Positions 27,461 to 42,697 of a stretch of 43,766 bases of DNA are shown piece by piece. The position numbers were made by a program, and so were the translations under genes. Source of the stretch: Hyphomicrobiales bacterium (lineage in GTDB: Bacteria > Pseudomonadota > Alphaproteobacteria > Rhizobiales > JAJFHB01); assembly GCA_021775615.1 (NCBI GenBank), contig JAJFHL010000358.1, positions 1-43,766 of the forward strand, in the 5' to 3' direction. The notes beneath the pieces are model-generated. The model was not told where the DNA came from, did not search any database, and was given only the letters and a program-made list of their open reading frames with translations. Positions within the stretch are counted from its first letter, which is position 1. Each line of letters opens with the position of its first letter.

Positions 27461-27522
27461 TTGACCTGCCCGATGTGGCGAAGCAGACTCTTTGAGGGTA
27501 CGGTCTCCGAGGCCTTGGCCTC
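27461..27522 (+). promoter_or_regulatory. Possible livG promoter with palindrome GAGGCC-TT-GGCCTC
   Basis: TTGACC at 27461 and CAGACT at 27484 are 17 bp apart, a mediocre sigma-70 fit. A perfect 6-bp inverted repeat lies at 27509-27522, shortly before the transporter gene. This is the only symmetric sequence I see in the 137-bp gap. Confidence 0.3.
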
Positions 27523-27557
27523 TCGACAAGAACAAGAGACGGACAGAGAGGTTGCAT

Positions 27558-28337
27558 ATGGTGCCGGACTCCAAGCCAATTCTCGAAGTTCAAAACCTTA
27601 CGCGCCGGTTCGGCGGGCTGCTGGCAATCAATGATTTCAGCTTCAAGGTGTTGCCTGGAACCATCCATGGACTGATCGGCCCGAACGGGGCGGGGAAGAC
27701 AACGACCTTCAACGTCATCAGCGGCTTTTACGCGCCGACTTCGGGCCAAGTGCTCTACGAGGGCGAGAATGTGTCCGGCCGCAAGACGAGCGCACTGGCC
27801 GAACTGGGATTGATCCGCACGTTTCAGGGCACGACCCTGTTCCAGGAATTTTCCGTGCTCGATAATGTCCGCATCGGGTGTCATCGCAGCGCAAAGGCCG
27901 GATTCCTCAGCCGCATTCTTGGGACCGATCGGGATGTGGAAAGCGCCGCCACCGCGAAGGCGCTGGAAATCCTGGAGTTCTTCGGGCTGCAGGACCTGAC
28001 CGGCGAGCCCACGGTAAACCTGCCGCACGGACATCAGCGCGCGCTCGGCATGGCGGTCGCGCTTGCCGCCGATCCCAAGCTCATTCTTCTGGATGAGCCG
28101 TTTACCGGCATGAATCCGGAGGAGACAGGGCGGATGATGGAGCTGGTGCGTCTGGTGCGGGACCGGGGCGTGACCGTGATGCTGGTGGAGCACGACATGC
28201 AGGCGGTGATGGGCCTGTGCGAAACCATCACAGTGATGAATTTCGGAACCCTGCTCACGGAAGGTACACCGGAGCAGGTACGCAAGGACCCGGTCGTGAT
28301 CGAAGCCTACCTTGGAAGTGCGTCCCATGCTGCTTGA
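27558..28337 (+). CDS. Branched-chain amino acid/amide-type ABC transporter ATPase (LivG family)
   Basis: Cytoplasmic ATPase of a HAAT-family importer. 259 residues: Walker A G41-P-N-G-A-G-K-T-T49, a LivG-type signature NLPHGHQRALGMAVAL in place of LSGGQ, Walker B LILLDEPFTGMNPEE, and switch histidine VEHDM. The frame is open upstream, but the ATG at 27558 has GAGAGG upstream and gives the usual N-terminus. It overlaps livF by 11 bases. The permeases and binding protein that should complete it are on the opposite strand, converging from 32871. Substrate not readable; the neighbouring tmm gene suggests a methylated amine or related solute. Confidence 0.92.
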   Translation: MVPDSKPILEVQNLTRRFGGLLAINDFSFKVLPGTIHGLIGPNGAGKTTTFNVISGFYAPTSGQVLYEGENVSGRKTSALAELGLIRTFQGTTLFQEFSVLDNVRIGCHRSAKAGFLSRILGTDRDVESAATAKALEILEFFGLQDLTGEPTVNLPHGHQRALGMAVALAADPKLILLDEPFTGMNPEETGRMMELVRLVRDRGVTVMLVEHDMQAVMGLCETITVMNFGTLLTEGTPEQVRKDPVVIEAYLGSASHAA

Positions 28338-29034
28338 GATCAGGGATATCGAAGTCCACTACCACAAGGTGGCGGCGCTCAAGGGCATCAGCATGGAGGT
28401 GCCCGAAGGCGGCATCGTCACCATCATCGGCGCCAACGGAGCCGGCAAGAGCACCACGCTCAGGGCTGTATCGGGGCTTGAGAAAACCACAACCGGCGAG
28501 ATCTGGTTTGACGGCGAGCGCATCGACAACCTGCCGGTCGACAAGATCGTCGCCCGGGGCATCGCCCATGTGCCCGAGGGGCGGCGTGTGTTTCCCGATC
28601 TCACGGTAGAGGAGAATCTGAGAACCGGCGCGTTCCTGCGCAAGGACAAGGCGGCGATCGAAGCCGATCTGGCGGATGTCTTTGCCCATTTTCCACGCCT
28701 CAAGGAACGCCGCACCCAATGGGCGCGGACGCTGTCGGGCGGCGAACAGCAGATGGTGGCCATCGGCAGGGCGCTGATGGCAAAACCGAAACTCTTGTTG
28801 CTCGATGAGCCGTCCATGGGGCTTGCTCCGGTCATGGTCCAGGAAATCGCCCGCATCATCGTGGAAATCGCCGAGAGCGGCGTGCCGGTGGTTCTGGTCG
28901 AGCAGAATGCGGAACTGGCGCTGCGGCTGGCGAACTTCGCCTATGTGCTGGAGACCGGGACGGTGGCGCTTGAGGGGCCGGCGCTGGAGCTGCACGAGAA
29001 CGACCACGTCAAGCGGGCCTATCTCGGTGGCTGA
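28327..29034 (+). CDS. Branched-chain amino acid/amide-type ABC transporter ATPase (LivF family)
   Basis: Second ATPase of the importer. 235 residues: Walker A GANGAGKST, the LivF-specific GIAHVPEGRRVFPDLTVEEN, signature TLSGGEQQMVAIGRALM, Walker B LLLLDEPSMGLAP, and switch region VEQNAE. It begins at the ATG at 28327 inside the livG 3' end; a TTG at 28312 is less likely. Its last eight bases overlap the GTG of the following gene. Confidence 0.92.
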   Translation: MLLEIRDIEVHYHKVAALKGISMEVPEGGIVTIIGANGAGKSTTLRAVSGLEKTTTGEIWFDGERIDNLPVDKIVARGIAHVPEGRRVFPDLTVEENLRTGAFLRKDKAAIEADLADVFAHFPRLKERRTQWARTLSGGEQQMVAIGRALMAKPKLLLLDEPSMGLAPVMVQEIARIIVEIAESGVPVVLVEQNAELALRLANFAYVLETGTVALEGPALELHENDHVKRAYLGG

Positions 29035-29605
29035 AAGCTGGTCGGTCCCCGAACTCCTCAATGCGGGATGGAGCGAGGCTGATCTCGAATGGGAGACGGC
29101 GTTGCGAAATGGTGTGGCGGCCTATGGCGCGGGTGACAGCACCACGGCGCTCGAACGCTTCGGGAGATGCGTGCAGCTCGCCCGTGCTCAGTTCGACGCG
29201 CACGACCCGCGTCTCGGCACCGCCGTTGCGAATTTCGGGCACTGCCGGCGCGCGGTGGATCAGGAAACTGGGACCGTGGATCTGTTGCGTGAAGCCTGCG
29301 ACATCTGGGCTAGTTGCGATGGCTGGGTCGACAAGCTGACCGCGCCGCGCAGCGCCCGCAGTTCGCTCTTCCACATGCGCATGGAACAGCGTCACCGCGA
29401 TGCTTATGAAGAGCGCTGGCGCATCAAGTGGGGCGAACTGGTCCACGAGGCACGCGGACGCATGGACGCGCTGATAGACGGGCCCGTCTGTCCTGCCGCG
29501 GACGCGCAGGCCTGCGTCGAGCGCTGGGATCGCGAGTGTCCGGCAATGCTGAACGACAGCCGCAAACTGATGGCCGCCGTCATCTTACTGTTACCGCCAG
29601 GCTAG
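29027..29605 (+). CDS. Unknown TPR-like protein coupled to livF
   Basis: A 192-residue cytoplasmic protein starting at GTG 29027, overlapping the livF stop by eight bases, so probably co-translated. The N-terminal half reads as one tetratricopeptide-like helical pair (WETALRNGVAAYGAGDSTTALERFGRCVQLAR). The C-terminal part carries C and W pairs (CPAADAQACVERWDRECPAM). I do not recognise a family. There is no signal peptide or membrane segment. Position at the end of the transporter ATPase unit suggests an accessory role in uptake or in sensing the substrate. Confidence 0.65.
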   Translation: MAESWSVPELLNAGWSEADLEWETALRNGVAAYGAGDSTTALERFGRCVQLARAQFDAHDPRLGTAVANFGHCRRAVDQETGTVDLLREACDIWASCDGWVDKLTAPRSARSSLFHMRMEQRHRDAYEERWRIKWGELVHEARGRMDALIDGPVCPAADAQACVERWDRECPAMLNDSRKLMAAVILLLPPG

Positions 29606-29615
29606 GGTGCGATCG

Positions 29616-30614
29616 CTACCCAGTAGCTGTTTTGTCTCTGGAGCTGCCCGCAAACCACGCCTTGACCTTTGACGCGATGCTTTCCAGTCCCGTTGGAAGA
29701 AACAGGACGGAGAGGATCAGGATGGCGCCGTAGAACATCGGCCGCATCTCATCGACACCGAGCGACCGCAGCACGATTTCATTGATGATGGTGAGGGCGA
29801 CGACGCCCATGATCGGGCCGTAGAAGGTGGTGGTGCCGCCGACGATCGCCCAGATCAGCACATAGACCATCTGTTCCACATCAAACAGCTTCGGGTTCAC
29901 GGTGCCGACATAATGGGCGAAGAGGGCGCCGCCGAGACCGGCGAAGAAGGAGGCGATGACGAAGGCCAGCATGCGGTAGCGGAAGGTATCGACGCTGACG
30001 GACTCGGCCAGCTTGTCCTGCCAGTGGATGGCGTGAAACGTCAGGCCGATGCGCGAGCGTTCGATGCGGTAGAGGATCAGAAGCGCCAACCCGACCACAA
30101 TCACGCAGAAATAGTAGTAATTGACCGGCTCAAAGAAATCGATACTGAGGGCGCCGAACTCGATATCCGGAAAACCCGGGATGCGCTTGATGCCCTTGGG
30201 GCCTCCGAACGGGTCGGTGAAGCGCTTCCAGATGAGGCGGATGATTTCGCCGGCGGCGAAGGAGCCGATCAGGAAGTAAAAGCCCTTCATGCGGAACAGC
30301 GGAAACGAGAGAACGAAGGCTACAGCCGCTGCCGTGACCGCGCCGCACAGCATGGAGAGCGGAACCGGAACCCCGAGTTTTTTCGTGAACAGGGCGCTGG
30401 CATAGGCGCCGACGCCCACCATGACCACATGGCCGAGCGACCATTCGCCGGTCAAGGTCAGGAGCCGGTAGCTGACCACGACCAGTACGTTGATGACCAG
30501 AAACACCAGCACTTCCTGCTGGGAGTAGCTCAGCACATGCGGCAGCAGGACGAGGCCGGCCATCAATGCGATAAAAGCCAGGACCTGTCCGAGCCGGATG
30601 GAACGTTCAGGCAC
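29616..30614 (-). CDS. Branched-chain amino acid/amide-type ABC transporter permease (LivM family)
   Basis: A 332-residue inner-membrane permease with eight to ten hydrophobic segments. LivM hallmarks are SLGHVVMVGVGAYASALF, FRMKGFYFLIGSFAAGEIIRLIWKRF and the coupling-helix loop FFAGLGGALFAHYVGTVNPKLF. It overlaps the livH stop by eight bases. Its stop is only ten bases from that of the convergent unknown gene at 29605. Confidence 0.92.
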   Translation of the reverse strand: MPERSIRLGQVLAFIALMAGLVLLPHVLSYSQQEVLVFLVINVLVVVSYRLLTLTGEWSLGHVVMVGVGAYASALFTKKLGVPVPLSMLCGAVTAAAVAFVLSFPLFRMKGFYFLIGSFAAGEIIRLIWKRFTDPFGGPKGIKRIPGFPDIEFGALSIDFFEPVNYYYFCVIVVGLALLILYRIERSRIGLTFHAIHWQDKLAESVSVDTFRYRMLAFVIASFFAGLGGALFAHYVGTVNPKLFDVEQMVYVLIWAIVGGTTTFYGPIMGVVALTIINEIVLRSLGVDEMRPMFYGAILILSVLFLPTGLESIASKVKAWFAGSSRDKTATG

Positions 30615-31473
30615 GGTCCTTGGCTCCGAACAGGCCGGTGGGGCGAACGACCAGAACCGCCAGCATCAGGGAGAGGCCGACGATATTGGCGATCACCCCG
30701 TCATAGAACGTGGTGACGAAGGTATGCACGAAGGCATAGAGGACTGCGGCAATGACGGCGCCCTCGAGGCTGCCGATACCGCCGACGATTATGATGATGA
30801 AGGCGGTGACGATGACGGCGTGCCCCATATGCGGGGTCGGGCTCACCAGAGGGGCGGTGAGGGCGCCGGCGACACCCGCAAGCGCCGCGCCGATGAACAT
30901 GGCGAGCCGTGCGGTGTGGTTGAGCGAGATGCCCTGAAGGGCGGCCGCCTCGGGGTCCTGCGCGCAGGCCCGCAGCGCCCAGCCGAACTTGCTCTTGCGC
31001 AGGAACAGCCACAACCCGCCCAGCAGAACGACCGTGGCGACGATGACGTAGAGGCGCTGGACCGTCAGAACCACGCCTTCGGTGAGGAAGATTTTCTCCT
31101 GTGTCGAGGGCGGTACATGCTCCATGCGCACGCCGAATCCAAGCACCGCGACGGTCTGCAGGATCAGGAGGAACCCGATCGAGGCGATGAGACCGCCGAG
31201 CGGGTTGTCGCGCAGCGGCCGGAACAGGGCGCGTTCCATGACGAGGCCAAGCAGGCCGACGAAGATCAGCCCGGCGGCGACCGCAAGGAAAAACGGCATT
31301 TTGAGATCGGTGTAGAGATAGACCACCGAGTAGGCGCCCGCCATATAGAGCTCGCCATGGGCGAAATTGATCACCCCCATGACGCCGAAAATCAGCACCA
31401 GACCGACCGCGATCAAAGCCATGTAGCTTGCCGCGTATGTGGCGTTGGTGATGGTCTGTAACAGGAGTTCCAT
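30607..31473 (-). CDS. Branched-chain amino acid/amide-type ABC transporter permease (LivH family)
   Basis: A 288-residue permease with about eight transmembrane helices. It shows the LivH patterns GLVLIFGVMGVINFAHGELYMAGAY, ERALFRPLRDNPLGGLIASIG and AAALAGVAGALTAP. CAGGGG lies just before the ATG at 31473. It is downstream of the binding protein (87-base gap containing a strong hairpin) and overlaps livM. Confidence 0.93.
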   Translation of the reverse strand: MELLLQTITNATYAASYMALIAVGLVLIFGVMGVINFAHGELYMAGAYSVVYLYTDLKMPFFLAVAAGLIFVGLLGLVMERALFRPLRDNPLGGLIASIGFLLILQTVAVLGFGVRMEHVPPSTQEKIFLTEGVVLTVQRLYVIVATVVLLGGLWLFLRKSKFGWALRACAQDPEAAALQGISLNHTARLAMFIGAALAGVAGALTAPLVSPTPHMGHAVIVTAFIIIIVGGIGSLEGAVIAAVLYAFVHTFVTTFYDGVIANIVGLSLMLAVLVVRPTGLFGAKDRA

Positions 31474-31560: not shown

Positions 31561-32871
31561 TCAGCGCTGGTTGTACATCTGACCAAGCGCCTTGAAGTGC
31601 TTGACCATCAGGTCCGAGTGCTTGGCCCACCAGGCGGGGATGGATTTGAATCCCTTGATCTTGGCTTTGCCGCCCTCGATCACGACCACAGGCCAGTCGC
31701 CCACCAGTGCGTTGTCGATGCCGAAGAGTTCGGTGCCCCACCAGTCGGCAGTGCCGAAGGCATGCTTGCCTTTGCCGCCGGCCTTCATCGCTTCGAGCAC
31801 ATCGCCGGGTTCGACGCTTCCCGCCTTCGAGGCGCCGTCCGCCCACAGATCCATGATCGAGGCGTATTCCCACGACACCGCGCCCCATTCGCTTTCGCCA
31901 TAGCGCTTGGCGTATTCGGCGTAGAATTCGTTGGGCTTCTGGAAATTCACCTTTGCATCGTTGAGCGCAGGATCGTCGAAATCGGGGAACTGGAAGATCA
32001 CGCCTTCCATGAACTCCTGCGAGGTTTTCTCGATGACCTTCTGGTAGAAGTCCATGGTGCAGGAAATGATCTTGCCCTTGAAGCCCTGCTGGAAGGCCTG
32101 CTCGCACAGGGGATGCACATAGTCCGCATAACAGGTGTCGAGACACAGGATGTCCGGCTTTGAAGCCAGCAGCTTGGTCATCACCGGCGCGAAGTCGGTG
32201 GTCGCCGGGTCAAAGAACAAGGGATCGTCGACAACATCGATACCGGCGGCTTCGAACGCGGCCAGATAGGTTGCCACCGACGGTTTGCCGAGGGCGTCGT
32301 CCTGGGCGCAGATCACCGCCTTCTTGAGGTCGGGGAACTGTTCGGCCATCCATTCGACGCCGGTCACATTGTAGATCGGATGCACTTCGCACGGCGCCAG
32401 CAACGTTTTCGTCTCGGGCGTCAGATCGCTCGGCAGGAGGGTTGAGAACAGCATGCCTTCCTTGGCGGCAATCTTCTCGACGCCCGGCCAGGTGTCGCCG
32501 CCCAGCATCATGACGAACTTGACCCCGTCCTCCTTGATGAGCTTGGTGGCGCCGGCGCGGGCTTTGGCCGGATCGTATTCATTGTCGTAAGCGACGAACT
32601 CGACCTTGTAGGCGTCGCCGCCAACCTTGACGCCGCCGGCCGCATTGACCCAGTCGGCCCAGATCAGGCAGCCGTCGTATCCGGGCTTGCCCCATGCCGC
32701 CACATCACCGGTGAGGGGGGCCAGAAAACCGATCTTGACCACCTTGTCGGCGCCGAACGCGAGCTGCGGCATTGATACGCCGGCCACGACCGTCATGGCC
32801 GCGGTTGTGCTGAGAAACTCGCGTCGGTCCATTTTGGGAAACGCGAATTTGCTGTCGTCGGATGTGGTCAT
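31561..32871 (-). CDS. HAAT-type ABC transporter substrate-binding protein with Tat signal
   Basis: A 436-residue periplasmic binding protein (type I fold, Peripla_BP_6). The N-terminus carries a twin-arginine signal, D15-R-R-E-F-L20, then a hydrophobic stretch and AFGA before the mature chain DKVVKIGFLAPLTGDVAAWG. Mature-chain aromatics such as GGDTWPGVEK and WGAVSWEYASIMDLW could line a site for a quaternary or methylated amine, but this is inference. The ATG at 32871 follows GGGGAGAAACCG, a strong ribosome site. It is clearly paralogous to the protein at 37125-38444. Divergent from tmm, with a 415-bp gap. Confidence 0.9.
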   Translation of the reverse strand: MTTSDDSKFAFPKMDRREFLSTTAAMTVVAGVSMPQLAFGADKVVKIGFLAPLTGDVAAWGKPGYDGCLIWADWVNAAGGVKVGGDAYKVEFVAYDNEYDPAKARAGATKLIKEDGVKFVMMLGGDTWPGVEKIAAKEGMLFSTLLPSDLTPETKTLLAPCEVHPIYNVTGVEWMAEQFPDLKKAVICAQDDALGKPSVATYLAAFEAAGIDVVDDPLFFDPATTDFAPVMTKLLASKPDILCLDTCYADYVHPLCEQAFQQGFKGKIISCTMDFYQKVIEKTSQEFMEGVIFQFPDFDDPALNDAKVNFQKPNEFYAEYAKRYGESEWGAVSWEYASIMDLWADGASKAGSVEPGDVLEAMKAGGKGKHAFGTADWWGTELFGIDNALVGDWPVVVIEGGKAKIKGFKSIPAWWAKHSDLMVKHFKALGQMYNQR

Positions 32872-33286: not shown

Positions 33287-34633
33287 ATGAGCAAACGTGT
33301 TGCGGTTATCGGCGCCGGGCCCTGTGGTCTGGCACAATTGCGCGCCTTTCAATCGGCCAAGGCGAAGGGCGCGGACATTCCAGAAGTCGTCTGTTTCGAG
33401 AAGCAGGACGATCTCGGCGGCCTGTGGAACTACACCTGGCGCACCGGTCTCGACGAATATGGCGAACCGGTCCACTGCAGCATGTACCGCTATCTCTGGT
33501 CGAACGGACCGAAGGAGTGTCTCGAATTTGCCGACTACACTTTCGATGAACACTTCGGCAAGCCGATCGCATCCTATCCGCCGCGCGAAGTATTGTTCGA
33601 CTATATCAAGGGCCGCATCGAGAAGGCCGGCCTGCGCGACTGGATCAGATTCCGCACACCGGTGCGCATGGTCACCTATGACGACGCCAGCGGCATGTTC
33701 ACGGTAACCGTCGAAGACCTCAAGAAGAACCACACATATTCAGAAGAGTTCGATTATGTGGTCGTGGCCAATGGCCATTTCTCGACCCCCAACGTGCCGC
33801 ATTTCGAAGGCTTTTCCTCATTCAACGGCCGGGTCCTGCATGCCCATGATTTCCGCGATGCCCTGGAGTTCAAGGACAAGGACCTCCTGATCATCGGCAC
33901 CAGTTACTCCGCCGAGGACATCGGCTCGCAATGCTGGAAATATGGCTGCAAGTCGGTGACGGTCTCCTACCGCACCGCGCCAATGGGCTTCCACTGGCCC
34001 GACAACTGGAAGGAAGTGCCGCTCCTGACCAAGGTCGAGGGCAACACCTGCCACTTCAAGGACGGCACGACCACCGATGTCGATGCCATCATCCTGTGTA
34101 CCGGATATCTCCACCACTTCCCGTTCCTGCCCGACGACCTCAAGCTGGTGACCGGTAACCGGATGTGGGCGCACGGCCTCTACAAGGGCGTGGTCTGGCA
34201 GAAGAACCCGAAGCTTTTCTATCTCGGCATGCAGGATCAGTTCTATACGTTCAACATGTTCGACGCGCAGGCCTGGTTTGCCCGCGACGTCATGATGGGC
34301 CGCATCGAACTGCCCTCGGAGGCGGATCGGCTGGCGAATGAGCAGATCTGGATCGACCGCGAGGCGACGCTCGAGACCGACGAGGACATGATCTGGTACC
34401 AGGGTGACAACATCCAGGAACTGGTCGACATGACCGACTATCCCAGCTTCGACATCGAAGGCACCAACAAGACCTTCATGGAGTGGGAACACCACAAGCA
34501 CGACGACATCATGACCTTCCGCAACAACGCCTACAAGTCGCTGATGACCGGCGCCCAGGCGCCGCTGCACCACACCGAGTGGAAAGAGGCCATGGACGAC
34601 TCCATGGAAAGCTATCTACAAGGTGGCAGTTAA
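33287..34633 (+). CDS. tmm: Trimethylamine monooxygenase (flavin-containing monooxygenase)
   Basis: Cytoplasmic FAD/NADPH enzyme oxidising trimethylamine to trimethylamine N-oxide with O2; characterised Tmm proteins also oxidise dimethyl sulfide. 448 residues. The FAD motif is G9-A-G-P-C-G14 and the NADPH motif G204-T-S-Y-S-A-E210; between them lie HAHDFRD and later [14 protein letters not shown]. Long stretches match bacterial Tmm as I remember it: [33 protein letters not shown] and [13 protein letters not shown] lies before the ATG. It is divergent from the binding-protein operon and followed by a GntR regulator; tdm lies 4 kb downstream. Confidence 0.94.
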
Positions 34634-34641
34634 ATTCGGAC

Positions 34642-34665
34642 CGGAAACCCGATGCTGAGTTTCCG
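34642..34665 (+). terminator. Small hairpin after tmm
   Basis: CGGAAAC (34642-34648) pairs with GTTTCCG (34659-34665) over a 10-base loop, a few bases after the tmm stop. There is no T-tract. Confidence 0.35.
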
Positions 34666-34678
34666 ATGCAACATGCGT

Positions 34679-34707
34679 CCGGAAGGTACGTACCACGGAC
34701 CTTCCGG
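34679..34707 (+). terminator. 9-bp hairpin between tmm and the GntR gene
   Basis: CCGGAAGGT (34679-34687) pairs perfectly with ACCTTCCGG (34699-34707) over 11 bases. It is stronger than the preceding hairpin. It could end tmm transcription or serve as a regulatory site; it lacks a T-tract. Confidence 0.45.
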
Positions 34708-34726
34708 GCGGCAACACAGACCATTC

Positions 34727-34766
34727 AGGACCCATACCACTTAGGACCCATACCACTTAGGACCCA
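34727..34766 (+). repeat. 16-bp tandem repeat, 2.5 copies, ahead of the GntR gene
   Basis: The unit AGGACCCATACCACTT occurs at 34727-34742 and 34743-34758, followed by the first eight bases again at 34759-34766. The last partial copy supplies the AGGA nearest the GTG start at 34775. Copy-number change here could alter regulator binding or translation. Confidence 0.75.
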
Positions 34767-34774
34767 AACGCATC

Positions 34775-35518
34775 GTGACCGCAAACGTTAGAGCTGATCG
34801 CATCCTCCTCACCGACAAGCCGGTATCGCGTACCGTGCGCACGGTTGCGGAAAACCTGTTCAACCGTGTCCGTGCCGGAGAGTTTCCGCTTGGGTCACGG
34901 CTGCCGTCGGAACGGCACCTGGCCAACGAGTTCGGTGTCGCGCGCAACACGGTGCGCGAGGCGCTCGATGTGCTCGAAGAATGCTGGATCATCCGACGGC
35001 GCCCAGGCTCGGGCAGTTTCGTCACCTACGAAGGGCAGGATGATGCGCCAGCACTCGATGCGGCAGCAATTCTCACCGACGAGGTGTCCGCTTCGACCAG
35101 CCCGCTCGAACTGCAGGTGGTGCGCGGTATCGTCGAGCCGGAAATCGCCCGGCTCGCGGTGATCAATGCGGCGCCGCGGGACATCGACCAGCTGCGCGAA
35201 ATTCTTGAACGCATGGAAGACATCCAAACTGATCCGGAAGCGTTCGCCCGCGCCGAGGAAGAGTTTCACCTGCGTCTTGTGCAGGCAACCGACAATCCGT
35301 TGTTGAAGGCGGTGTATGAGCTCGTCATCGAGGTGCGCCGCCACAGCCACTGGGCGGCGCATCGCCGCCGTGCGCTGTCACCCATGCGTATTCAGGAGTA
35401 TCAGCGCCGGCATCGCTCGCTCTTCGAAGCGGTGGAACTGCGCGACATTGAAAGCGCGGTCGAGTATGCCAAGCTGCATCTGATCGACGAACAGCGCGCC
35501 CTGACCCGGGAAGACTGA
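34775..35518 (+). CDS. GntR-family regulator, FadR/FCD subgroup
   Basis: A 247-residue transcription factor. An N-terminal winged helix spans residues about 20-88 (RAGEFPLGSRLPSERHLANEF, VARNTVREALDVLEE, RRPGSGSFVT). A C-terminal FCD ligand domain has the usual metal histidines in EEEFHLRLVQATDN, EVRRHSHW and YQRRHRSLFEAVELRD. These regulators usually bind carboxylate or amine metabolites and are released from DNA by them. Its position next to tmm makes control of the TMA/TMAO genes likely. It starts at GTG; the nearest AGGA is 12 bases upstream, rather far. Confidence 0.88.
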   Translation: MTANVRADRILLTDKPVSRTVRTVAENLFNRVRAGEFPLGSRLPSERHLANEFGVARNTVREALDVLEECWIIRRRPGSGSFVTYEGQDDAPALDAAAILTDEVSASTSPLELQVVRGIVEPEIARLAVINAAPRDIDQLREILERMEDIQTDPEAFARAEEEFHLRLVQATDNPLLKAVYELVIEVRRHSHWAAHRRRALSPMRIQEYQRRHRSLFEAVELRDIESAVEYAKLHLIDEQRALTRED

Positions 35519-35536
35519 CGGCGCGGCAACCCGAGG

Positions 35537-35910
35537 CCTAGACCCTTTCTTCTTCTTACGGAAACGCTTGATGGCGCCAAATCGGTTCGCTCGGCAAGAG
35601 CAGCCTGCGTCCGGTTGGACGCAGATAAGCTGCTCGTGCTTAGTGAAATAGATCAAATACTCTACGCTTAACCGGGATCGGTTAAGCGTAGTTTGATCTA
35701 TGCGCGGTGCGCCGTTCGATGCGGTGTATCGGGCAAGCGCCGCAACGCCGCCGACGGGCCGATTTGGCCCACCGAAGGCCGGATTTTCACGCCCACTGAC
35801 CGCGTTACGGCCCACTTGTGGTCAAGCCAAGACCACGGCGTGAACCGTGCCTTGTCAGCACACGTGAAAACCAGGTCAAGTGATTCCGTAAGAAGAAGAA
35901 AGGGTCTAGG
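35537..35910. mobile_element. 374-bp element with perfect 27-bp terminal inverted repeats (MITE-like)
   Basis: 35537-35563 is the exact reverse complement of 35884-35910 (27 of 27; outer end CCTAGACCC, inner end CTTACGGAA). After a three-base mismatch, five more bases pair (CTTGA at 35567-35571 with TCAAG at 35876-35880). The interior has no transposase and no convincing gene, but contains copy B of the two-hairpin repeat. CTAG at both outer ends could be a 4-bp target duplication, or part of the repeats. The size and lack of coding suggest a non-autonomous transposable element. It fills most of the gene-free stretch 35519-36002; the remainder shows nothing clear. Confidence 0.7.
35598..35700 (+). 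repeat. Two-hairpin repeat element, copy B
   Basis: Hairpin 1 (35598-35635): GAGCAGC with GCTGCTC and, inside, CTGCGTCC with GGACGCAG over GGTT. Hairpin 2 (35649-35700): outer TAGATCAAA with TTTGATCTA (9 bp) and inner CTACGCTTAACC with GGTTAAGCGTAG (12 bp), both perfect. The 13-base linker matches copy A (2934-3031) in length and largely in sequence. Read in the same direction, the two copies differ at paired stem positions by changes on both sides. Located inside the inverted-repeat element at 35537-35910. Confidence 0.82.
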
Positions 35911-36002
35911 AACTTACCTGCCAGTTGAAAACGAAAAGCGCAGATCGACGTCTTTTTCCAACGCCGCCGGCCCACTGTGCCGCCACCAACACCTCAGTGG
36001 TA

Positions 36003-37010
36003 TCAAAGGCTTGAATCTGTGCGCCTGAACTTGCCGATGACCGGCATGGCAATGAACTCGACGAATGGAACGAGCACAATCCCGGTCAACAAGCCGAACA
36101 GGCCATCAAGGCCTGCCTTGACGACCCAGTGGACCAACGCGGTTGCAAAGGAAACGACTTGCGCCGCGTGTTCTGCAACGGCGTCAACCAGGTGCGCCGG
36201 TGTGCCTAAGCCCATGACTTTTAGTTCGTGGATGATGATTGAACCTCCGACCCAAAGCATCGCTGCCGTACCAATAGTCGAAATGAGCGCCATAAAGCCC
36301 GGCATCGCCTTCACGATGCCTCTGCCGAGTGCACGGGTAAACGCAAGCCGTCCAATCTGGCTCAGCTTGAGCCCGACATCGTCGGCTTTCACCAGGATCA
36401 TGACGCTGCCGTAAACAAGAGCGGTGATGCCGATTGCCACGACCGCAAGCACCACGCCGGTGACCCACAGGCTGTCGGCCTCGATTTCCGACATGGCGAT
36501 GGTCATGATCTCGGCCGACAGGATGAAGTCCGTCTTGATCGCTCCTGAGACACGGGTGCGCTCCAGATGCTCGGGATCGGCGGCGCCGGCGTCGTTTTTG
36601 CTGTGATTGGCCGGCAGGATCAGGTGCAGGATCTTCTCGGCCCCTTCGAAGCAAAGGTAGGCGCCTCCCAGGATCAACAATGGGATGAGCAGCCATGGCG
36701 CCGTCGCGTCCAGGATCATTGCTATGGGAAGAAGGATGCACAGCTTGTTGAAAAGCGAGGCGCGCGCGATTTGCGCGACGATCGGTATTTCACGCGCTGC
36801 GGGAAGGCCCTGCACGTACTTTGGCGTGACCGCCGCGTCGTCAATCACAACGCCCGCAGATTTTGCGCCGGCCTTTGCCGCATCGTCGATGACGCTGCCC
36901 GCAACCTTTGCGCCTGTCTTGGTGGCTTTCGCAGCAATGTCGTCAATTTGGGCTGCCGCCAGCTTGGCTATTGCAGCGACGTCGTCGAGCAGAGACAGCA
37001 GGCCGCTCAT
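36003..37010 (-). CDS. DUF808 (YedI-like) inner-membrane protein
   Basis: A 335-residue membrane protein with the family N-terminus MSGLLSLLDDVAAIAKLAAAQ, then an alanine/lysine-rich stretch holding two VIDDAA repeats and DDAAVTPKYVQG. About six to eight hydrophobic helices follow. The family is widespread with no established function. It has a strong AGGAGG before the ATG at 37010. It lies 114 bases downstream of the second binding-protein gene on the same strand and may be cotranscribed, but has no evident link to amine metabolism. Confidence 0.85.
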   Translation of the reverse strand: MSGLLSLLDDVAAIAKLAAAQIDDIAAKATKTGAKVAGSVIDDAAKAGAKSAGVVIDDAAVTPKYVQGLPAAREIPIVAQIARASLFNKLCILLPIAMILDATAPWLLIPLLILGGAYLCFEGAEKILHLILPANHSKNDAGAADPEHLERTRVSGAIKTDFILSAEIMTIAMSEIEADSLWVTGVVLAVVAIGITALVYGSVMILVKADDVGLKLSQIGRLAFTRALGRGIVKAMPGFMALISTIGTAAMLWVGGSIIIHELKVMGLGTPAHLVDAVAEHAAQVVSFATALVHWVVKAGLDGLFGLLTGIVLVPFVEFIAMPVIGKFRRTDSSL

Positions 37011-37124
37011 TTCGCCTCCTCTTTGTTGCAGGTCCGTCCGAACTACTTTGAGCGGGAACCCGCGGGTCAGTCCGGTTCGAGAAAGTTCAGGCTAACGGGC
37101 GTCATCCCGCGAAGAACCCTGTTT

Positions 37125-38444
37125 TCACGAACTTACCAATCGTTTCAAAAAGGATTGCCGGGGCAGCACATCCTCTTTCGATGCGACTGGTGCGATCTGC
37201 TGGTCCCACATCTGTCCCAGATTGCGCATGTGCCGGGCCAACAGGTCGCCGTGCTTTTCACACCATGCGGGGACGGAGCGGAATTCAGCGATCCTCGCCT
37301 TGCCGCCCCGGATGACCACGACCGGCCAGTCGCCAACGAGGGCATTGTCAATGCCAAACAGATCATTGCCCCACCAGGCGGCCTCACCGAAGGCGTGGTG
37401 GCCGGTGCCGCCGGCCTTGATTGCGGCCAGAACCGAGACCGGCTCGACCGTGCCAGCGTTTTCCACCGCTTCTCTCCATAGCTCGAGGATTGAGGCGTAC
37501 TCCCAGGAGACCGCGCTCCAGGTGCCTGGGAAGCGGCGGTTGTATTCCTCGAAGAACTCGTTGGGCTTACGAAAGTTGATGCCCGAAGCGTTGAGCGCCG
37601 GGTCGTCGAAGTCGGGGAACTGGAACACGAAGCCTTCCATGAAGGCCTTGCTGGTGTGCGCGATCAGGCCGTCATAGTCGTCCGCCGTGCAGGAGATGAT
37701 CTGACCTTCGAAGCCATGGTCGAAGGCGGCCCGCGTCAGTTCGTGAACGAACGGCTCATAAGCCGTGTCCCAGCACAGGATGTCGGGCGAAGCTTCGAGC
37801 ATGCGAGCGACCACGCCGGCGAGGTCGGGGGAGGAGACCGGGAAGAAGATTTCCTGCACCAACTCGATGCCGGCCGCTTCGAAGGCCGCGCGGTAAGTGG
37901 CGATGGACGGCAGGCCGAGCGAGTCGCGCTGGGCGCAAAGCGCCACGGTCTTCAGCTCCGGACGGTTCTCCGCCACCCATTCCACGCCGGTTACGTTGTA
38001 GATAGGGTGCACCTCGCAAGGCGCGATCAGATATGGCGTATCGGGCGAGAGGTCGCTCGGCAGCAGGGTCGAGGTGAGCACCTTGTGTTGGTTGATGAAG
38101 TCCTGTACCGGCGGGAAGGTGTCGCCGCCCAGCATCAGCAGCAGCTTGACGCCGTCGTCCAGGACCAGCTTGCGCGCCCCGAGCAGAGCAAGGTTGGGCT
38201 CGTACTGGCAGTCGAACGGGACGATCTCGACCAGATAGCGTTCGCCACCGATCTGGATGCCGCCGGACGAGTTGACTTCGTCCGCCCAGACGAGACACCC
38301 GTCGTGGCCCGGGCGGCCCCAGGCCGAGACGTCGCCGGTGAGCGGCGCCAGGAAGCCGATCTTCACCGTGCGCTTGGAACTGGTCGACAGTTTCGGCATG
38401 GAGGCCGAAACCGTCAGCCTCGAGGCCAGGCTGGAGGACGACAC
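37125..38444 (-). CDS. Second HAAT-type substrate-binding protein, apparently without an export signal
   Basis: A 439-residue paralogue of the binding protein at 31561-32871, sharing nearly all landmarks (VKIGFLAPLTGDVSAWG, LIAPCEVHPIYNVTGVEW, FQFPDFDDPALN, SAVSWEYASI, GIDNALVGDWPVVVI). The N-terminus differs. It starts at GTG (GGAG about ten bases upstream), and residues 4-18 (SLASRLTVSASMPKL) align with the end of the paralogue's Tat signal, but the RR region is missing. The gene is in the same frame as tdm, separated only by its TGA and two codons. It may be cytoplasmic, mis-started or decaying; otherwise intact. Confidence 0.82.
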   Translation of the reverse strand: MSSSSLASRLTVSASMPKLSTSSKRTVKIGFLAPLTGDVSAWGRPGHDGCLVWADEVNSSGGIQIGGERYLVEIVPFDCQYEPNLALLGARKLVLDDGVKLLLMLGGDTFPPVQDFINQHKVLTSTLLPSDLSPDTPYLIAPCEVHPIYNVTGVEWVAENRPELKTVALCAQRDSLGLPSIATYRAAFEAAGIELVQEIFFPVSSPDLAGVVARMLEASPDILCWDTAYEPFVHELTRAAFDHGFEGQIISCTADDYDGLIAHTSKAFMEGFVFQFPDFDDPALNASGINFRKPNEFFEEYNRRFPGTWSAVSWEYASILELWREAVENAGTVEPVSVLAAIKAGGTGHHAFGEAAWWGNDLFGIDNALVGDWPVVVIRGGKARIAEFRSVPAWCEKHGDLLARHMRNLGQMWDQQIAPVASKEDVLPRQSFLKRLVSS

Positions 38445-38450
38445 TTGGTA

Positions 38451-40850
38451 TCAGCTCCGTGCCCGAGATTTTGTCGGGTCGAAATGGGGGAAGGCGACGA
38501 CGCGGGCGGGCAGGCGTTTCTGGTGCCCGTCAAGTTTGCCGATTTCGACCTCGGTGCCGACTTCGGCATGGGCTACGTCCAGGCGGGCAAGAGCAATGTT
38601 CTTTTTCAGGATCGGCGATCGCGTGGCGCTGGTGACTTCACCGATTTGAGGGCGGCCGATATGGACGCAGTCGCCGTGACCCACCGCCTCGTTGCCGTCG
38701 ATCTCAAGGCCGACCAGCCTGCGCGAGGGGTGTTCCTTGCGGCGGACCAGGGCATCGCGGCCGATGAAGTCGTCTTCCTTGGTCTTGAGGGCAACGGAGA
38801 ATCCGATGCCCGCTTCGAACGGGTCGGTCTGATCGCAGAATTCGGCACCGTAGAAGATGAGGCCGGCTTCGATGCGGACCATGTCGAGGGCGTCGAGCCC
38901 CATGCAGGCAAGGCCGTGCGGCTCGCCTGCTGCCCATACCGCGTCGAAGACCGCTTTTGCGTCTTTGGGATGACACCAGATCTCATAGCCGAGCTCGCCG
39001 GTATAGCCGGTGCGCGAGACAACCACGGGCGCGCCTTCATATTCGTGGATGCGGCCGACCGTGAAGCGGAACCATTGCAGCTCCTCCAGCGACGTGTGCG
39101 CCGGCGGCGTCCAGATGATCTCTTTCAGGATGTCGCGCGACTTCGGGCCCTGCACCGCGATATTGTGCAACTGGTCGGTGGACGAGCGCACCCAGGCGTT
39201 CAGCCCGAGTTCTTCGGCCTGCTCACGCAGCCACTGGCCGCCATATTCATCGCCGCCGATCCAGCGGAAGTTCTGGTCGCCGAGACGGAACAGCGTGCCG
39301 TCGTCGAGCATGCCGCCGTGTTCGTAACACATGGCCGAATAGACCACCTGGCCGACCGACAGTTTCCGCACGTTGCGGGTGAGGGTGTACTGCATCAGGG
39401 CTTCGGCGTCGGGGCCTGTCACCTCGAATTTGCGCAATGGGCTGAGGTCCATCACCACGGCGCGTTCGCGGCAGGCCCAGTACTCCTCGATGGCGCCGTC
39501 ATTGTTGAAATGGGTCGGCAGCCAGAAGCCCTTGTATTCGGTGAAACTGCGGGTGTGGGCGGAAAAGCTCTCATGGAAAGCCGTTTCGCGGGTGAGTTCA
39601 GGCTCGGCGTCCGGTGTCATTCTGAATGCGATCGCTCTCGAGAAGGTTTCTTTGTCGGAATAGGTGCGCACGTGGATGTCGGTCGGATCCCAACCGTTGG
39701 CCGCGCTGGTGTCGTCGGGGCAGGCGGACGACACGCAGACAATGTCGGTCAGCGCACGCATCAGGACATAGTCGCCGGGCCTCGACCACGGCTCATCCAG
39801 ATAGAGCACGTTATTTTCATCGATGGCGGTGTTGTAGAAGTAGTTCAGGGCCATCCAGCCGCGGCGCGGGCGCACGCCGTATTCTTCCAGGGCGCCGTTG
39901 AAATTGTCGGTGCAGTTGACATGGCCGGGATAGCCGGCGTCATCGTAATAGCGGGCGGTGCAGGCAAGGCCGAAGGCATCGTGCCGGCCGCAGGTGTCCT
40001 GCACCAGTTCGATAAGCGGCGTCATGTCCTCGTCGAAGCCCTTGGAGAGCAGGCCCGGGCTCGGATAGCCCTGTGCCATCAGCGTTCGGGTTGTGGTCGC
40101 ATCGAGCGGGCGGTCGAGCCCCTTGTCGAGCTTGCGGGCGTCGAAACACTGGAAGTCGGTGCACTGGCGCCCGGCCACATCGATAATCTGAATGTATTCG
40201 CCGGCACGCACGAAAAAGCCGTTGGCGGTTGCGTTGTGGACACGGATGTCCTGCAACGGGTCGGCGAGGGGGTCGGGGAGATCGGTCTCCGCCGCTGGCA
40301 GGATCCTGGCGCGGCGGATCATCACGCGCAGTGGTGTCGATGTGTCGTGGGCGTCGACCTGCATCGGTGTGCCGGGCGCGCAGGCGATCAGGACGCCATC
40401 ACGGGCGGCAGTGAATTCCGCCGTGTTGCCGGGGGGCGAACCGGCGCCGAACAGGCGGACGGCGGTCGCGCCGGCGAGGTCGATGCCGCGGCGCTCGAGA
40501 CCGCGCCGAACCGTCTCTGCATTGCCGGTACGGCCTGCGAGCAGGGCGCGGAGCCCGTCAGCGGGCGTGTCCGATGTCTGGCCGATGACGCCGCTGTCGC
40601 ATTTGCCGGCGGCGTCGGCGGTTACCAGTTCGCAGGGCTGCAGACCTTCGACATCGATGACTTCGACGGCATCGCCCTCACGCAGGGCAATCACCATGGC
40701 GCCGCCGCCAGGGACCTTGTAACGCTCTGTTCCACGCGGCAGCAGGGGCATGCCGGGACGCAGAATGGCCGAAGGCCGCGGTGGGCCGGCGGAAACGGCC
40801 GGGTGTTCGACGGTATCCAACATGGCCGCGAGACTAACGGGAAGATCCAT
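38451..40850 (-). CDS. tdm: Trimethylamine N-oxide demethylase-like protein (DUF1989 + GcvT domains)
   Basis: Probable Tdm, which splits TMAO into dimethylamine and formaldehyde. 799 residues. The N-terminal DUF1989 (urea-carboxylase-associated) half holds C297 (LACTAR), C313 (NCTDNFNG) and C377 (SSACPDDTSAANGW), spaced 16 and 64 as I recall for the three-cysteine zinc site of characterised Tdm. The half from about residue 440 is a tetrahydrofolate-binding aminomethyltransferase domain (VVMDLSPLRKFEVTGPDAEAL, SRTGYTGELGYEIW), thought to catch the formaldehyde. The ATG at 40850 is chosen; a TTG at 40886 is possible. The downstream binding protein follows in frame. A dimethylglycine-type demethylase is the main alternative; domain order favours Tdm. 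Confidence 0.88.
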   Translation of the reverse strand: MDLPVSLAAMLDTVEHPAVSAGPPRPSAILRPGMPLLPRGTERYKVPGGGAMVIALREGDAVEVIDVEGLQPCELVTADAAGKCDSGVIGQTSDTPADGLRALLAGRTGNAETVRRGLERRGIDLAGATAVRLFGAGSPPGNTAEFTAARDGVLIACAPGTPMQVDAHDTSTPLRVMIRRARILPAAETDLPDPLADPLQDIRVHNATANGFFVRAGEYIQIIDVAGRQCTDFQCFDARKLDKGLDRPLDATTTRTLMAQGYPSPGLLSKGFDEDMTPLIELVQDTCGRHDAFGLACTARYYDDAGYPGHVNCTDNFNGALEEYGVRPRRGWMALNYFYNTAIDENNVLYLDEPWSRPGDYVLMRALTDIVCVSSACPDDTSAANGWDPTDIHVRTYSDKETFSRAIAFRMTPDAEPELTRETAFHESFSAHTRSFTEYKGFWLPTHFNNDGAIEEYWACRERAVVMDLSPLRKFEVTGPDAEALMQYTLTRNVRKLSVGQVVYSAMCYEHGGMLDDGTLFRLGDQNFRWIGGDEYGGQWLREQAEELGLNAWVRSSTDQLHNIAVQGPKSRDILKEIIWTPPAHTSLEELQWFRFTVGRIHEYEGAPVVVSRTGYTGELGYEIWCHPKDAKAVFDAVWAAGEPHGLACMGLDALDMVRIEAGLIFYGAEFCDQTDPFEAGIGFSVALKTKEDDFIGRDALVRRKEHPSRRLVGLEIDGNEAVGHGDCVHIGRPQIGEVTSATRSPILKKNIALARLDVAHAEVGTEVEIGKLDGHQKRLPARVVAFPHFDPTKSRARS

Positions 40851-41104
40851 TGTTGTCACGAGCGCGTATGCAGTGCCGAACCGCAAAACCGGCGTGTTTA
40901 GGATGTAATGATTGAGGCTCTTGCGCTCGCCGCGCGAGGCGATGTACTTCTACGGATGTCACGGGGCCCCTTGCAATTTGCACAGGCGCCGCCATTTTCC
41001 GATCACACTCATGGTGTTTCGGTGTGGGGAATTGGTTTGAATTCAGACGATGGAATCGGCTTTGGTGCCTTCTTCAAGGCGTTGCCGGAAATTATGGGAC
41101 TGAC

Positions 41105-41692
41105 ATGATGGTCAAGAACCTCTCGGGCTTGTTCACGGCCGCGGCACTGGCGTTTTCCGTATTGCTGGCCGGCGTAACCGTAGCCCAGTCGGATGGCGGC
41201 GACGATACCAGGGGCACGCGCGAAAAACTTCCAACGCCGCAGCACAAAGTCCTGAAAGGGTTCGCCGGCAAATGGAAGGGCAAGGGTGTATTGCGCACGT
41301 CAGGCAAGACCGAAAACGAGGTTGTGCGCTGTCAGCTCAAATCGACGCTTATCTATGACAGCCGTTTTCTGTTCCAGGACGGCACCTGCTCTGCGGTCGG
41401 TCGCACGGTCTCTTTCCTGATCACACTCGCCTACGACAAGATCGTCCAGAAATACACCGGCTCCTGGATCAACAGCGTCAATCTCGGCATCTGGAGTATG
41501 GACGGTCAGAAAGACGACAACAACCTGACCTTCACCGTGGTGCATGACGATCCGGACCGAAACAAGAAGATCAAGAGCACGGTCAACATGATCTGGATCG
41601 ACAACAACCAGTACCGGCTGGTGATGACGTCAGCCGATCTCGATACCGGTCAGAATTTCGAACGCAGCAATATCATTTTCCAGCGCAAATAA
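41105..41692 (+). CDS. Exported protein of unknown function
   Basis: A 195-residue protein with a signal peptide (MMVKNLSGLFTAAALAFSVLLAGVTVAQ, cleavage probably after VAQ or nearby). The mature part looks like a beta-rich barrel of the DUF1579/lipocalin-like kind (GFAGKWKGKGVLRTSGKTEN, LIYDSRFLFQDGTC, YTGSWINSVNLGIWSM, YRLVMTSADL). Two cysteines (in VRCQL and GTCSA) could form a disulfide. ATG codons at 41105 and 41108 are adjacent; no strong ribosome site is seen. It is convergent with the ureohydrolase gene. The 254-bp gap before it (to tdm) holds no gene I can support. I cannot name a family with certainty. Confidence 0.72.
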   Translation: MMVKNLSGLFTAAALAFSVLLAGVTVAQSDGGDDTRGTREKLPTPQHKVLKGFAGKWKGKGVLRTSGKTENEVVRCQLKSTLIYDSRFLFQDGTCSAVGRTVSFLITLAYDKIVQKYTGSWINSVNLGIWSMDGQKDDNNLTFTVVHDDPDRNKKIKSTVNMIWIDNNQYRLVMTSADLDTGQNFERSNIIFQRK

Positions 41693-41719
41693 CCAAAATC
41701 ACAAAGACGAGGCCGAAGG

Positions 41720-42697
41720 TCAGCGACCTTGCAGGGCGTGGGCCTTGCCTGACATGAACTCGCACAACAGGGTTGCCAGCACATTGCCGGTGTTCTTCGT
41801 CGGGTCGATCAGGGGCGCGTATTCGACCACATCCATGCCGGCGGCTCCCGCCATCCCAAGACGTCTTACGAACCGCATTGCCTCGAAGGGCTGAAACCCG
41901 CCGGGTCCGGGATACTGGGTTCCGGGCGCGAATGTGTGGTCCATGGCGTCGATGTCGAAGGTTATGTAGAAGGCGTCCGTGCCGCGGGTTGCAATTTCGA
42001 TTGCCTCATCGATGCACTGGTTGACGCCTTTGTCGTGGAACTGCTCCATGGTGTAGAAGCTGATGCCCATGTCGCGGCCTTCGCGAATTTCGCGGCCGGA
42101 ATTGGCAAAGCCCCGCAACCCGAGGAAAGCGACGTTTTCGGGCCGCACATGTCCGCCCTCGACGAGACGGCGAAGCGGGCAGCCGCAGTAATGGCGGTCG
42201 CCCTTGTAGTCGGGCATGAAATCGGGGTGTCCGTCGAACCAGACCACGCCGACATTTTTGCCATGGTGCTCGGAAAAGGCGCGCAGGGTCGCTTCGGTGA
42301 TGCTGTGACTGCCGCCGGCCACGACCGGGATACCGCCGCGCGACAGCACTTCTTTCATTATCGCCTCGGTGCGTTCGAACGTGACGTCATAGCTCATGTA
42401 CTCGACTTCGATGTCACCGAGATCGAGAAAGCCGTTGGTCTCGACGAAATCAAGATCGAGGTCGACGCTGTAGGGACGCAGCTTCGACAGCGCGGCGCGC
42501 AGGCCGTCGGGACCGCCCTTGCCGCCGATGTCGTTGATCAGCAGGCCCTCAAACGGCACGCCGAAGAAGCAGAATGTGCCGGCTTCGATCTCGCCGTCGG
42601 TGCGCACAAGCCCGCCCAACTTGGCGTAAGCCGGGTCGATCACGCTTTGTACCGACCAGCCGGGCCGCTTCATCAGATGTGGCAAATCGGAAATCAT
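41720..42697 (-). CDS. Ureohydrolase (agmatinase/arginase family)
   Basis: A 325-residue binuclear metal hydrolase. Metal ligands are visible at H131 (GGSHS), D155-G-H157-P-D159 and D248-I-D250, with the family's APGTQYPGPGG just after. It would hydrolyse a guanidino compound to urea plus an amine; agmatine, guanidinobutyrate or another guanidino acid are all possible, and this branch is not classical agmatinase in its loops (FDGHPDF instead of DAHAD). The ATG at 42697 has GGGAGG nine bases upstream; a more distal start at 42745 lacks one. It is 70 bases downstream of the TPR gene on the same strand. Confidence 0.85.
   Translation of the reverse strand: MISDLPHLMKRPGWSVQSVIDPAYAKLGGLVRTDGEIEAGTFCFFGVPFEGLLINDIGGKGGPDGLRAALSKLRPYSVDLDLDFVETNGFLDLGDIEVEYMSYDVTFERTEAIMKEVLSRGGIPVVAGGSHSITEATLRAFSEHHGKNVGVVWFDGHPDFMPDYKGDRHYCGCPLRRLVEGGHVRPENVAFLGLRGFANSGREIREGRDMGISFYTMEQFHDKGVNQCIDEAIEIATRGTDAFYITFDIDAMDHTFAPGTQYPGPGGFQPFEAMRFVRRLGMAGAAGMDVVEYAPLIDPTKNTGNVLATLLCEFMSGKAHALQGR

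Follow-up and report, generated by a model that had tools for sequence, protein, structure and literature searches.

The contig JAJFHL010000358.1 of a Hyphomicrobiales bacterium (43,766 nucleotides, assembly GCA_021775615.1), called the window here, encodes a substrate-binding protein (SBP) directly behind tdm, the gene for trimethylamine N-oxide (TMAO) demethylase. This SBP belongs to a group of binding proteins that is leaderless and monophyletic, linked to a gene for a GntR regulator with an FCD domain, and co-evolving with that regulator. The metal site of the partner is degenerate in most relatives. We lean toward the view that the group is a cytoplasmic, AmiC-like sensor of methylated amines that works with a GntR regulator resembling TmoR of Ruegeria pomeroyi. 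Taken separately, a cytoplasmic location of the leaderless protein is very likely, a methylated amine is a likely ligand, and, for the clade, a role as a sensor acting together with the GntR is somewhat favored. We infer a physical interaction between SBP and GntR and an effect on regulation.

In the proposed mechanism, a twin-arginine translocation (Tat) signal peptide would have been lost once and the protein would stay in the cytoplasm. There it would bind dimethylamine (DMA), TMAO or trimethylamine (TMA) and report to the nearby FCD-GntR, which would control tmm, the gene for trimethylamine monooxygenase, and perhaps the divergent ABC operon too. Since the GntR metal site that normally holds the effector appears to be lost in most of the clade, the SBP would have taken over sensing. 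This would be the AmiC-AmiR logic with a GntR repressor as the partner.

Leaderless binding proteins and the tdm junction

SBP homologues were collected using leaderless queries, which gives an uneven sample. The named-genome scan covered 79 loci, the best 79 of 408 relatives. The 144 tblastn matches in the loci were reduced to 124 by removing identical cores, short matches, and the open fragments of L077 and L078, and a truncated duplicate (L018) was left out of the tree. L086, L093, and L118, marked as Tat by a loose pattern, were relabelled leaderless by eye before the tree was built. In the resulting tree of 123 homologues, a quick tree built without the N-terminus and without bootstrap, the 63 proteins lacking a Tat motif form one clade (SH-aLRT 100) and the other 60 carry the motif. 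The split needs a single change of state. The outgroup does not fall on one side of a branch, and one row (L036) is misplaced.

The short start is shared well beyond the window. The nearest orthologues within G012 and G133, genomes of other families in the order (70% and 67% identical), begin MPSSNLTSRLTVSATLPR and MSTTSLASRLAVSASLPR, at the same distance to the core as VSSSSLASRLTVSASMPK in the window, and neither has tdm directly ahead of it. Orthologues in other families and orders start about 25 residues ahead of the core with no Tat motif. For 32 of the 63 leaderless genes, an in-frame stop lies within 15 codons ahead of the chosen start. The five named plasmid records examined, out of 17 found (Paracoccus aminovorans, P. 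aminophilus, P. yeei, Ponticoccus, and Thioclava), are annotated with similarly short starts. Judged from these sequences, the leaderless state is an old, shared loss of the Tat signal peptide with a single origin.

The window's SBP N-terminus, VSSSSLASRLTVSASMPKLSTSSKRTVKIG, has no twin arginine and resembles the c-region of a Tat paralogue encoded in the same window, DRREFLSTTAAMTVVAGVSMPQLAFGADKVVKIG. A preliminary description of this DNA had said as much, and the comparison bears it out. A proline 13 residues ahead of the first core glycine is present in 39 of the 63 leaderless and 45 of the 60 Tat proteins. Because of this shared register, the leaderless N-terminus appears to be what is left of a signal tail. 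The Pfam score (Table 1) and structure matches place a type-I binding fold (Peripla_BP_6) in the SBP; a Tat export signal was not found in its 441-codon frame, nor in the leaderless clade. The AlphaFold2 model has a mean pLDDT (predicted local distance difference test) of 86 and a pTM (predicted template modelling score) of 0.83, with residues 1-22 and 419-439 below 50.

The preliminary description had also reported that tdm and the SBP gene share one frame, separated by a single TGA and two codons. This holds on the minus strand, where tdm ends in CGG AGC TGA and TAC CAA leads to the GTG start of the SBP. Two of the origins it offered for this arrangement were a deletion of the gene's own start and a stop readthrough that gives a Tdm-SBP fusion. 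Such a local accident, including an assembly error that took the signal peptide, would be in keeping with the in-frame abutment and with a draft genome of 392 contigs, and we nevertheless regard it as highly improbable. Orthologues across families and orders start likewise, mostly not behind tdm, and the in-frame abutment occurs in this contig only among the loci compared. The upstream gene encodes a full-length Tdm, with the NCBIfam profile match reaching position 762 of 763. Its C-terminus, FDPTKSRARS, agrees with the ends of seven of the 15 other Tdm proteins (e.g., YDPQKTRPRS, YDPKKERPRS, and YDPEKKRVRM), and the remaining eight extend a few residues past it. Since Tdm ends like its relatives, this TGA is where tdm normally stops. 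We rejected a deletion or an assembly error at the junction because of the orthologues with equal starts and no Tat motif, and a readthrough fusion because of the natural Tdm C-terminus and the unconserved junction.

The SBP frame spans just 441 codons from stop to stop; therefore, an upstream in-frame signal peptide is impossible. GGAG within the 3' end of tdm, 10 nt ahead of the SBP GTG, is a plausible ribosome-binding site for coupled translation, and in this contig the SBP is probably translated by coupling. Sharing a frame is a 1-in-3 event and trivial, and the junction is an ordinary one. In Pelagibius (L058, 7540-11290), tdm is followed by a leaderless SBP gene on the same strand after an 82-bp gap, with differing frames; a partner-type GntR was not found in that stretch. 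On the plus strand of the window, a 1081-codon open frame (37656-40901) runs antisense to tdm and the SBP gene and is most likely a by-product of GC-rich codon use.

The SBP could instead be exported through an atypical N-terminus or a partner and serve LivHMGF as an additional binding protein beside the Tat paralogue, which we consider improbable. It is 58% identical to that paralogue, whose gene stands beside the permease genes, and a LivH or LivM gene is present in the available stretch for 19 of the 63 leaderless genes, many stretches being short. Also, the leaderless N-terminus has a near-constant length and is moderately conserved, with a relative entropy of 1.90 compared to 3.06 in the core and 0.91 in the C-terminal tail. 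These values come from a 47-row alignment of the window's protein and 46 of the 49 leaderless sequences from the named-genome search, without the near-copies L068, L091, and L111 and the 13 sequences from the sampled-genome searches. On the other side, a strict twin-arginine pattern matches only one of the 63 leaderless frames (KRPMI in L065), by chance, and the longest run without charged or polar residues averages 9 compared to 17 in the Tat set, with overlapping ranges. Relatives that have the same short N-terminus together with proven export would, according to the preliminary description, refute its reading; the short N-terminus did turn up at the sequence level and the proven export did not.

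Distribution also bears on export. Among 397 genomes of the order, 23 had a match at E ≤ 1e-120: 13 with leaderless proteins and 14 with Tat proteins, five of these with both. One more match, in G227, is a distant Tat-type protein (43% identity). Nine genomes have the Tat type only, and eight of the 13 leaderless-bearing genomes, all in family f2, have no Tat paralogue at that threshold. The best four candidates per genome were scored, which covered all candidates in six of these eight genomes, not in G316 and G355. Since leaderless SBPs occur in eight genomes without a Tat paralogue at this threshold, the leaderless protein does not depend on that transporter. The f2 proteins cluster with named Hyphomicrobium ones in the tree. 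In seven of the eight genomes, a GntR gene stands beside at least one leaderless gene, and in G355 it is 1.6 kb away. Hyphomicrobium-type loci often combine the SBP-GntR pair with demethylation genes and a gene from a cluster in which the one member scanned scores as a TMAO permease (892 bits, cut-off 690), without ABC genes. At 13 of these loci (L098:6969-7739 and 12 others), a gene for a protein of about 256 aa adjoins the GntR gene; the one scanned member matched nothing in NCBIfam at 1e-10 or in Pfam at 0.001. G316 (L020, L164) carries three genes for leaderless SBPs, two of them in tandem, together with two linked GntR genes, as though SBP and GntR genes duplicate together. In a phylum sample, four of 398 genomes matched at E ≤ 1e-130: that of the window and three others from its class (L134, L135, and L136). 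The proteins of L135 and L136 lack a leader. The stretches of L134 and L135 include a GntR of the partner type, and that of L136 does not.

Linkage and co-evolution with the GntR regulator

A GntR-FCD gene lies within 300 bp of 51 of the 63 leaderless SBP genes, 49 of them tail-to-tail and two in tandem. This count consists of 49 pairs from gene calls (47 tail-to-tail) and two tail-to-tail pairs found by a hidden Markov model search, L084 and L049; the L049 stretch ends at a contig end. All but one of the 47 called tail-to-tail pairs overlap or sit at most 60 bp apart. The gene calls are heuristic: in the window, an antisense frame was called in place of tdm, and the GntR of L084 was missed. 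Loci from the sampled-genome searches have 1.5-kb flanks, and L044, L049, and L051 end at contig ends.

The evidence favors the third option of the preliminary description, in which the protein senses or carries a ligand in the cytoplasm, and it favors the sensor more than the carrier. A carrier or buffer in the cytoplasm would hand TMAO or TMA to Tdm or Tmm and have no regulatory role. It would suit the SBP genes that follow tdm in the same direction in the window and in Pelagibius, and the 21 of 63 that are divergent from tmm within 700 bp. We find it unlikely, as Tdm is encoded in the available stretch of only 16 of the 63 genes (17 with the window's own) compared to an adjacent GntR in 51, and the SBP distances track the GntR. 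To our knowledge, Tmm and Tdm need no such carrier.

This tracking was measured using pairwise distances. The SBP-GntR correlation was 0.898 over 52 pairs (the 49 called within 300 bp plus the window, L046, and L071), and the largest value in 2000 permutations was 0.208. Because shared ancestry inflates plain correlations, the partial correlation is the useful figure. At the 19 loci where a Tat SBP is encoded as well, the leaderless protein correlated with the GntR at 0.94 and with the Tat SBP at 0.62. The partial correlation was 0.90 for leaderless protein and GntR given the Tat SBP, and 0.10 for leaderless protein and Tat SBP given the GntR. The Tat SBP hardly tracks the GntR once the leaderless protein is given (0.19). 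In genomes with two pairs, an SBP and its GntR mostly have matching nearest relatives. The nearest relative of the window's SBP and GntR is the same (L045), and the next ones differ.

The regulator's metal site was then compared between linked and unlinked proteins. The FCD (FadR-subfamily) GntRs TM0439, CitO, and HypR combine a winged helix with an FCD domain, as does the window's GntR. Passages of PMC6608401 and PMC4746285 give His134, His174, and His196 as the FCD metal ligands of TM0439, with Asp130 in support, and state that the FCD domain of CitO itself binds the effector with a metal, which is required. Of 44 GntR matches in the order, 15 are linked by coordinates to an SBP of this family, and all 29 unlinked FCD-GntRs retain the D-H-H-H motif. 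In the partner cluster of 54 GntRs, a count that includes one gene under both L041 and L046, 50 have lost at least one of the metal histidines and three keep D-H-H-H; the number of histidines kept is none in 22, one in 23, two in five, and three in four. Three further linked GntRs read DRNA (G046, beside its Tat SBP), EMLH, and EMLH, and four plasmid GntRs read ERYM, EQHM, EYFH, and EQHM. As far as residues can tell, most partnered regulators have lost the usual effector site, a loss consistent with the SBP sensing the ligand. We give an even chance to the broader idea of a split sensor-regulator in a methylated-amine module of Alphaproteobacteria, in which an FCD-GntR without a metal site would use an export-less SBP as a detachable sensor, and DMA or TMAO would bind the SBP and not TmoR.

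The SBP could also be the regulator's partner and sense something else, such as a downstream one-carbon or nitrogen metabolite. We infer the methylated-amine ligand, and the pair also occurs near other genes: one resembling old yellow enzyme and TMA dehydrogenase in G133, and racemase-family and NCS1 transporter genes in Paracoccus aminovorans. Isolates also display the usual layout: on P. aminophilus pAMI6, an NAD(P)/FAD oxidoreductase gene, taken as the Tmm2 of PMC4543880, stands with the SBP and FCD genes, and P. yeei has a pAMI6-like layout behind an aminomethyltransferase-family gene. A ligand other than a methylated amine is unlikely, given that Tmm was called in 32 of the 63 available stretches, many of them short, and that TmoR responds to DMA and TMAO in vivo, according to passages of PMC13390433.

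Operator-like dyads were found at some of these loci. TGGT-N4-ACCA occurs in the 250 bases upstream of 17 of the 21 SBP genes divergent from tmm, with 0.0 expected from 20 shuffles; it scored best among the many dyads that were tried, and the 21 loci include several close relatives. With at most one mismatch, TTGGT-N4-ACCAA has 13 sites between gene calls (0.183 sites/kb) and 33 within them (0.039 sites/kb). Several of these 33 fall in the gap between tmm and the SBP gene, because the called genes extend too far at their starts. Further sites are located between the GntR and Tat SBP genes in L099, L102, and L122.

Several observations count against a sensor that works with the GntR. Twelve of the 63 leaderless genes have no GntR gene within 300 bp. 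It is 1.6 to 5.9 kb off in the window, L046, L071, L022 (G355), and the second tandem copy of L020; it was not found in the available stretch of L012, L044, L051, L058, L060, or L115, and L079 has a weak distant match only. In the L012 genome, a GntR gene sits beside the Tat SBP gene, about 90 kb away. In Thioclava L139, no FCD gene adjoins the SBP gene, and the partner GntRs of L047, L050, and L052 have D-H-H-H. In the window, the SBP gene is one gene from the GntR gene and behind tdm, and the GntR reads E-H-H-H with all three histidines intact; it may sense by itself, which argues against full outsourcing. The control regulators belong to other FCD branches, and histidine loss may be a trait of the clade instead of an effect of pairing. 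Leaderless and Tat N-termini have overlapping values in simple measures of hydrophobicity, which do not decide the matter. TTGGYN4RCCAA is not enriched across the window's genome (18 sites compared to 49 for the control), and the 12 dyad matches with up to two mismatches in the window are no more than chance (mean 10.5). With no enrichment in window or genome, it is the position of the candidate site upstream of tmm (Table 1) that singles it out. No dyad with up to two mismatches was found in 33772-42434, hence none near the tdm-SBP operon. Finally, a passage of PMC13390433 states that tdm is not under TmoR control in R. pomeroyi.

Gene layout of the window

The window's layout is rearranged, with the SBP gene behind tdm, the GntR gene still convergent with it 1.6 kb away, and tmm ahead of the GntR gene, which starts 141 bp behind tmm (Table 1). 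None of the genes called at the other loci in the comparison is homologous to the intervening DUF808 gene. The permease genes sit with the Tat paralogue, not with the leaderless SBP. The ABC genes (27492-31473) are split, with LivG and LivF on the plus strand converging on LivM and LivH on the minus strand, unlike the L041-type loci, where SBP, LivH, LivM, LivG, and LivF all run in one direction. A gene for a small TPR-like protein (cluster 6, 16 loci, e.g., L091:16931-17608) follows LivF at many of the loci; this protein had no NCBIfam match and a sub-threshold match to Pfam TPR_12. A frame after LivF in the window (28805-29605) looks similar to it by eye.

Table 1. Coordinates of the binding-protein locus and its surroundings in the window
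Feature	Position	Strand	Details
Leaderless HAAT/type-I SBP	37125..38444	-	439 aa, GTG start; Pfam Peripla_BP_6 151.9 bits, cut-off 31.7; proposed cytoplasmic methylated-amine sensor
tdm/SBP junction	38442..38460	-	GGAG 38458-38455, TGA 38453-38451, TAC CAA, GTG 38444-38442
tdm, trimethylamine N-oxide demethylase	38451..40886	-	NCBIfam NF053776 1268 bits, cut-off 1100; listed open reading frame starts at TTG, stop is the natural C-terminus
FCD-type GntR regulator (TmoR-like)	34775..35518	+	Proposed partner; convergent with SBP gene, one gene between; motif E-H-H-H
DUF808 protein gene	36003..37010	-	Between SBP and GntR genes
tmm, trimethylamine monooxygenase	33287..34633	+	NCBIfam NF058570 835.6 bits, cut-off 675
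GntR-operator-like dyad TTGGCCTGTACCAA	33103..33116	.	One mismatch to TTGGT-N4-ACCAA; 170 bp upstream of tmm
Tat-type paralogous SBP	31561..32871	-	58% identical to leaderless SBP; from its ATG
LivH-like permease	30607..31473	-	PF02653 131.3 bits
LivM-like permease	29616..30614	-	PF02653 140.9 bits
LivF-like ATPase	28312..29034	+	PF00005 116 bits
LivG-like ATPase	27492..28337	+	PF00005 95.5 bits, PF12399

Comparison with known systems

AmiC is a non-exported, binding-protein-like sensor that acts with the regulator encoded beside it and reports amides to AmiR. The AmiC of Pseudomonas aeruginosa (PDB 1pea, 1qnl, and 1qo0) has the type-I binding-protein fold in common with the SBP, whose fold is that of the AmiC/UrtA/LivJ superfamily. 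The SBP model matched 1pea with a Z score of 34.1 (3.1 Å over 348 residues, 17% identity), a value tied with those of many transport SBPs; therefore, the fold says nothing about function. The AmiC-like features of the leaderless SBPs are this fold without a signal peptide and the linkage to a regulator. The systems differ in the partner, which is the antiterminator AmiR for AmiC and an FCD-GntR here, and in the context, amide catabolism compared to methylamine. AmiC-AmiR is cited in a passage of PMC9602780 for cytosolic proteins that match SBP profiles.

The Tat-type HAAT SBP with LivHMGF, found in the window, L041, and L043, is a neighboring lineage that often shares the locus. Unlike the leaderless type, it has a Tat signal and adjoins permease genes. 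A TMA cluster with an ABC substrate-binding protein and a FadR-family regulator appears in a passage of PMC7574528 (2020), and the gene is already in print, as a periplasmic protein. In the literature searched, we found no text on the missing signal or a role with TmoR, to which a 2016 TmoR study could add more, and no paper on a leaderless SBP working with a GntR or on SPO1552 of R. pomeroyi. The part of PMC4334477 that covers the locus names only tmm.

The closest known regulator is TmoR. According to passages of PMC13390433 (2026), this GntR family regulator represses tmm in R. pomeroyi, with DMA and to a lesser extent TMAO as effectors by mutant genetics, and its DNA-binding domain alone was purified. 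In 12 of the 13 strains considered by that source, tmoR is a neighbor of tmm, the two being "usually separated by a gene of unknown function". In R. pomeroyi DSS-3, one gene lies between the GntR gene and tmm, as in the Sedimentitalea and Roseovarius loci; this gene, SPO1552, between tmm and tmoR (SPO1553), probably belongs to the leaderless clade, as its layout suggests. The window differs from R. pomeroyi in having tmm ahead of the GntR gene and the SBP gene behind tdm. Like TmoR, its GntR is a GntR family member encoded next to tmm; it has GntR and FCD domains. Roseobacters and methylotrophs turn over TMA and so supply the marine nitrogen cycle. If the sensor reading is true, the leaderless SBP would fill a gap in how TmoR senses DMA and TMAO. 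A transport protein would have become the sensor of a regulator whose own pocket is decaying, which is the logic of AmiC with another class of regulator.

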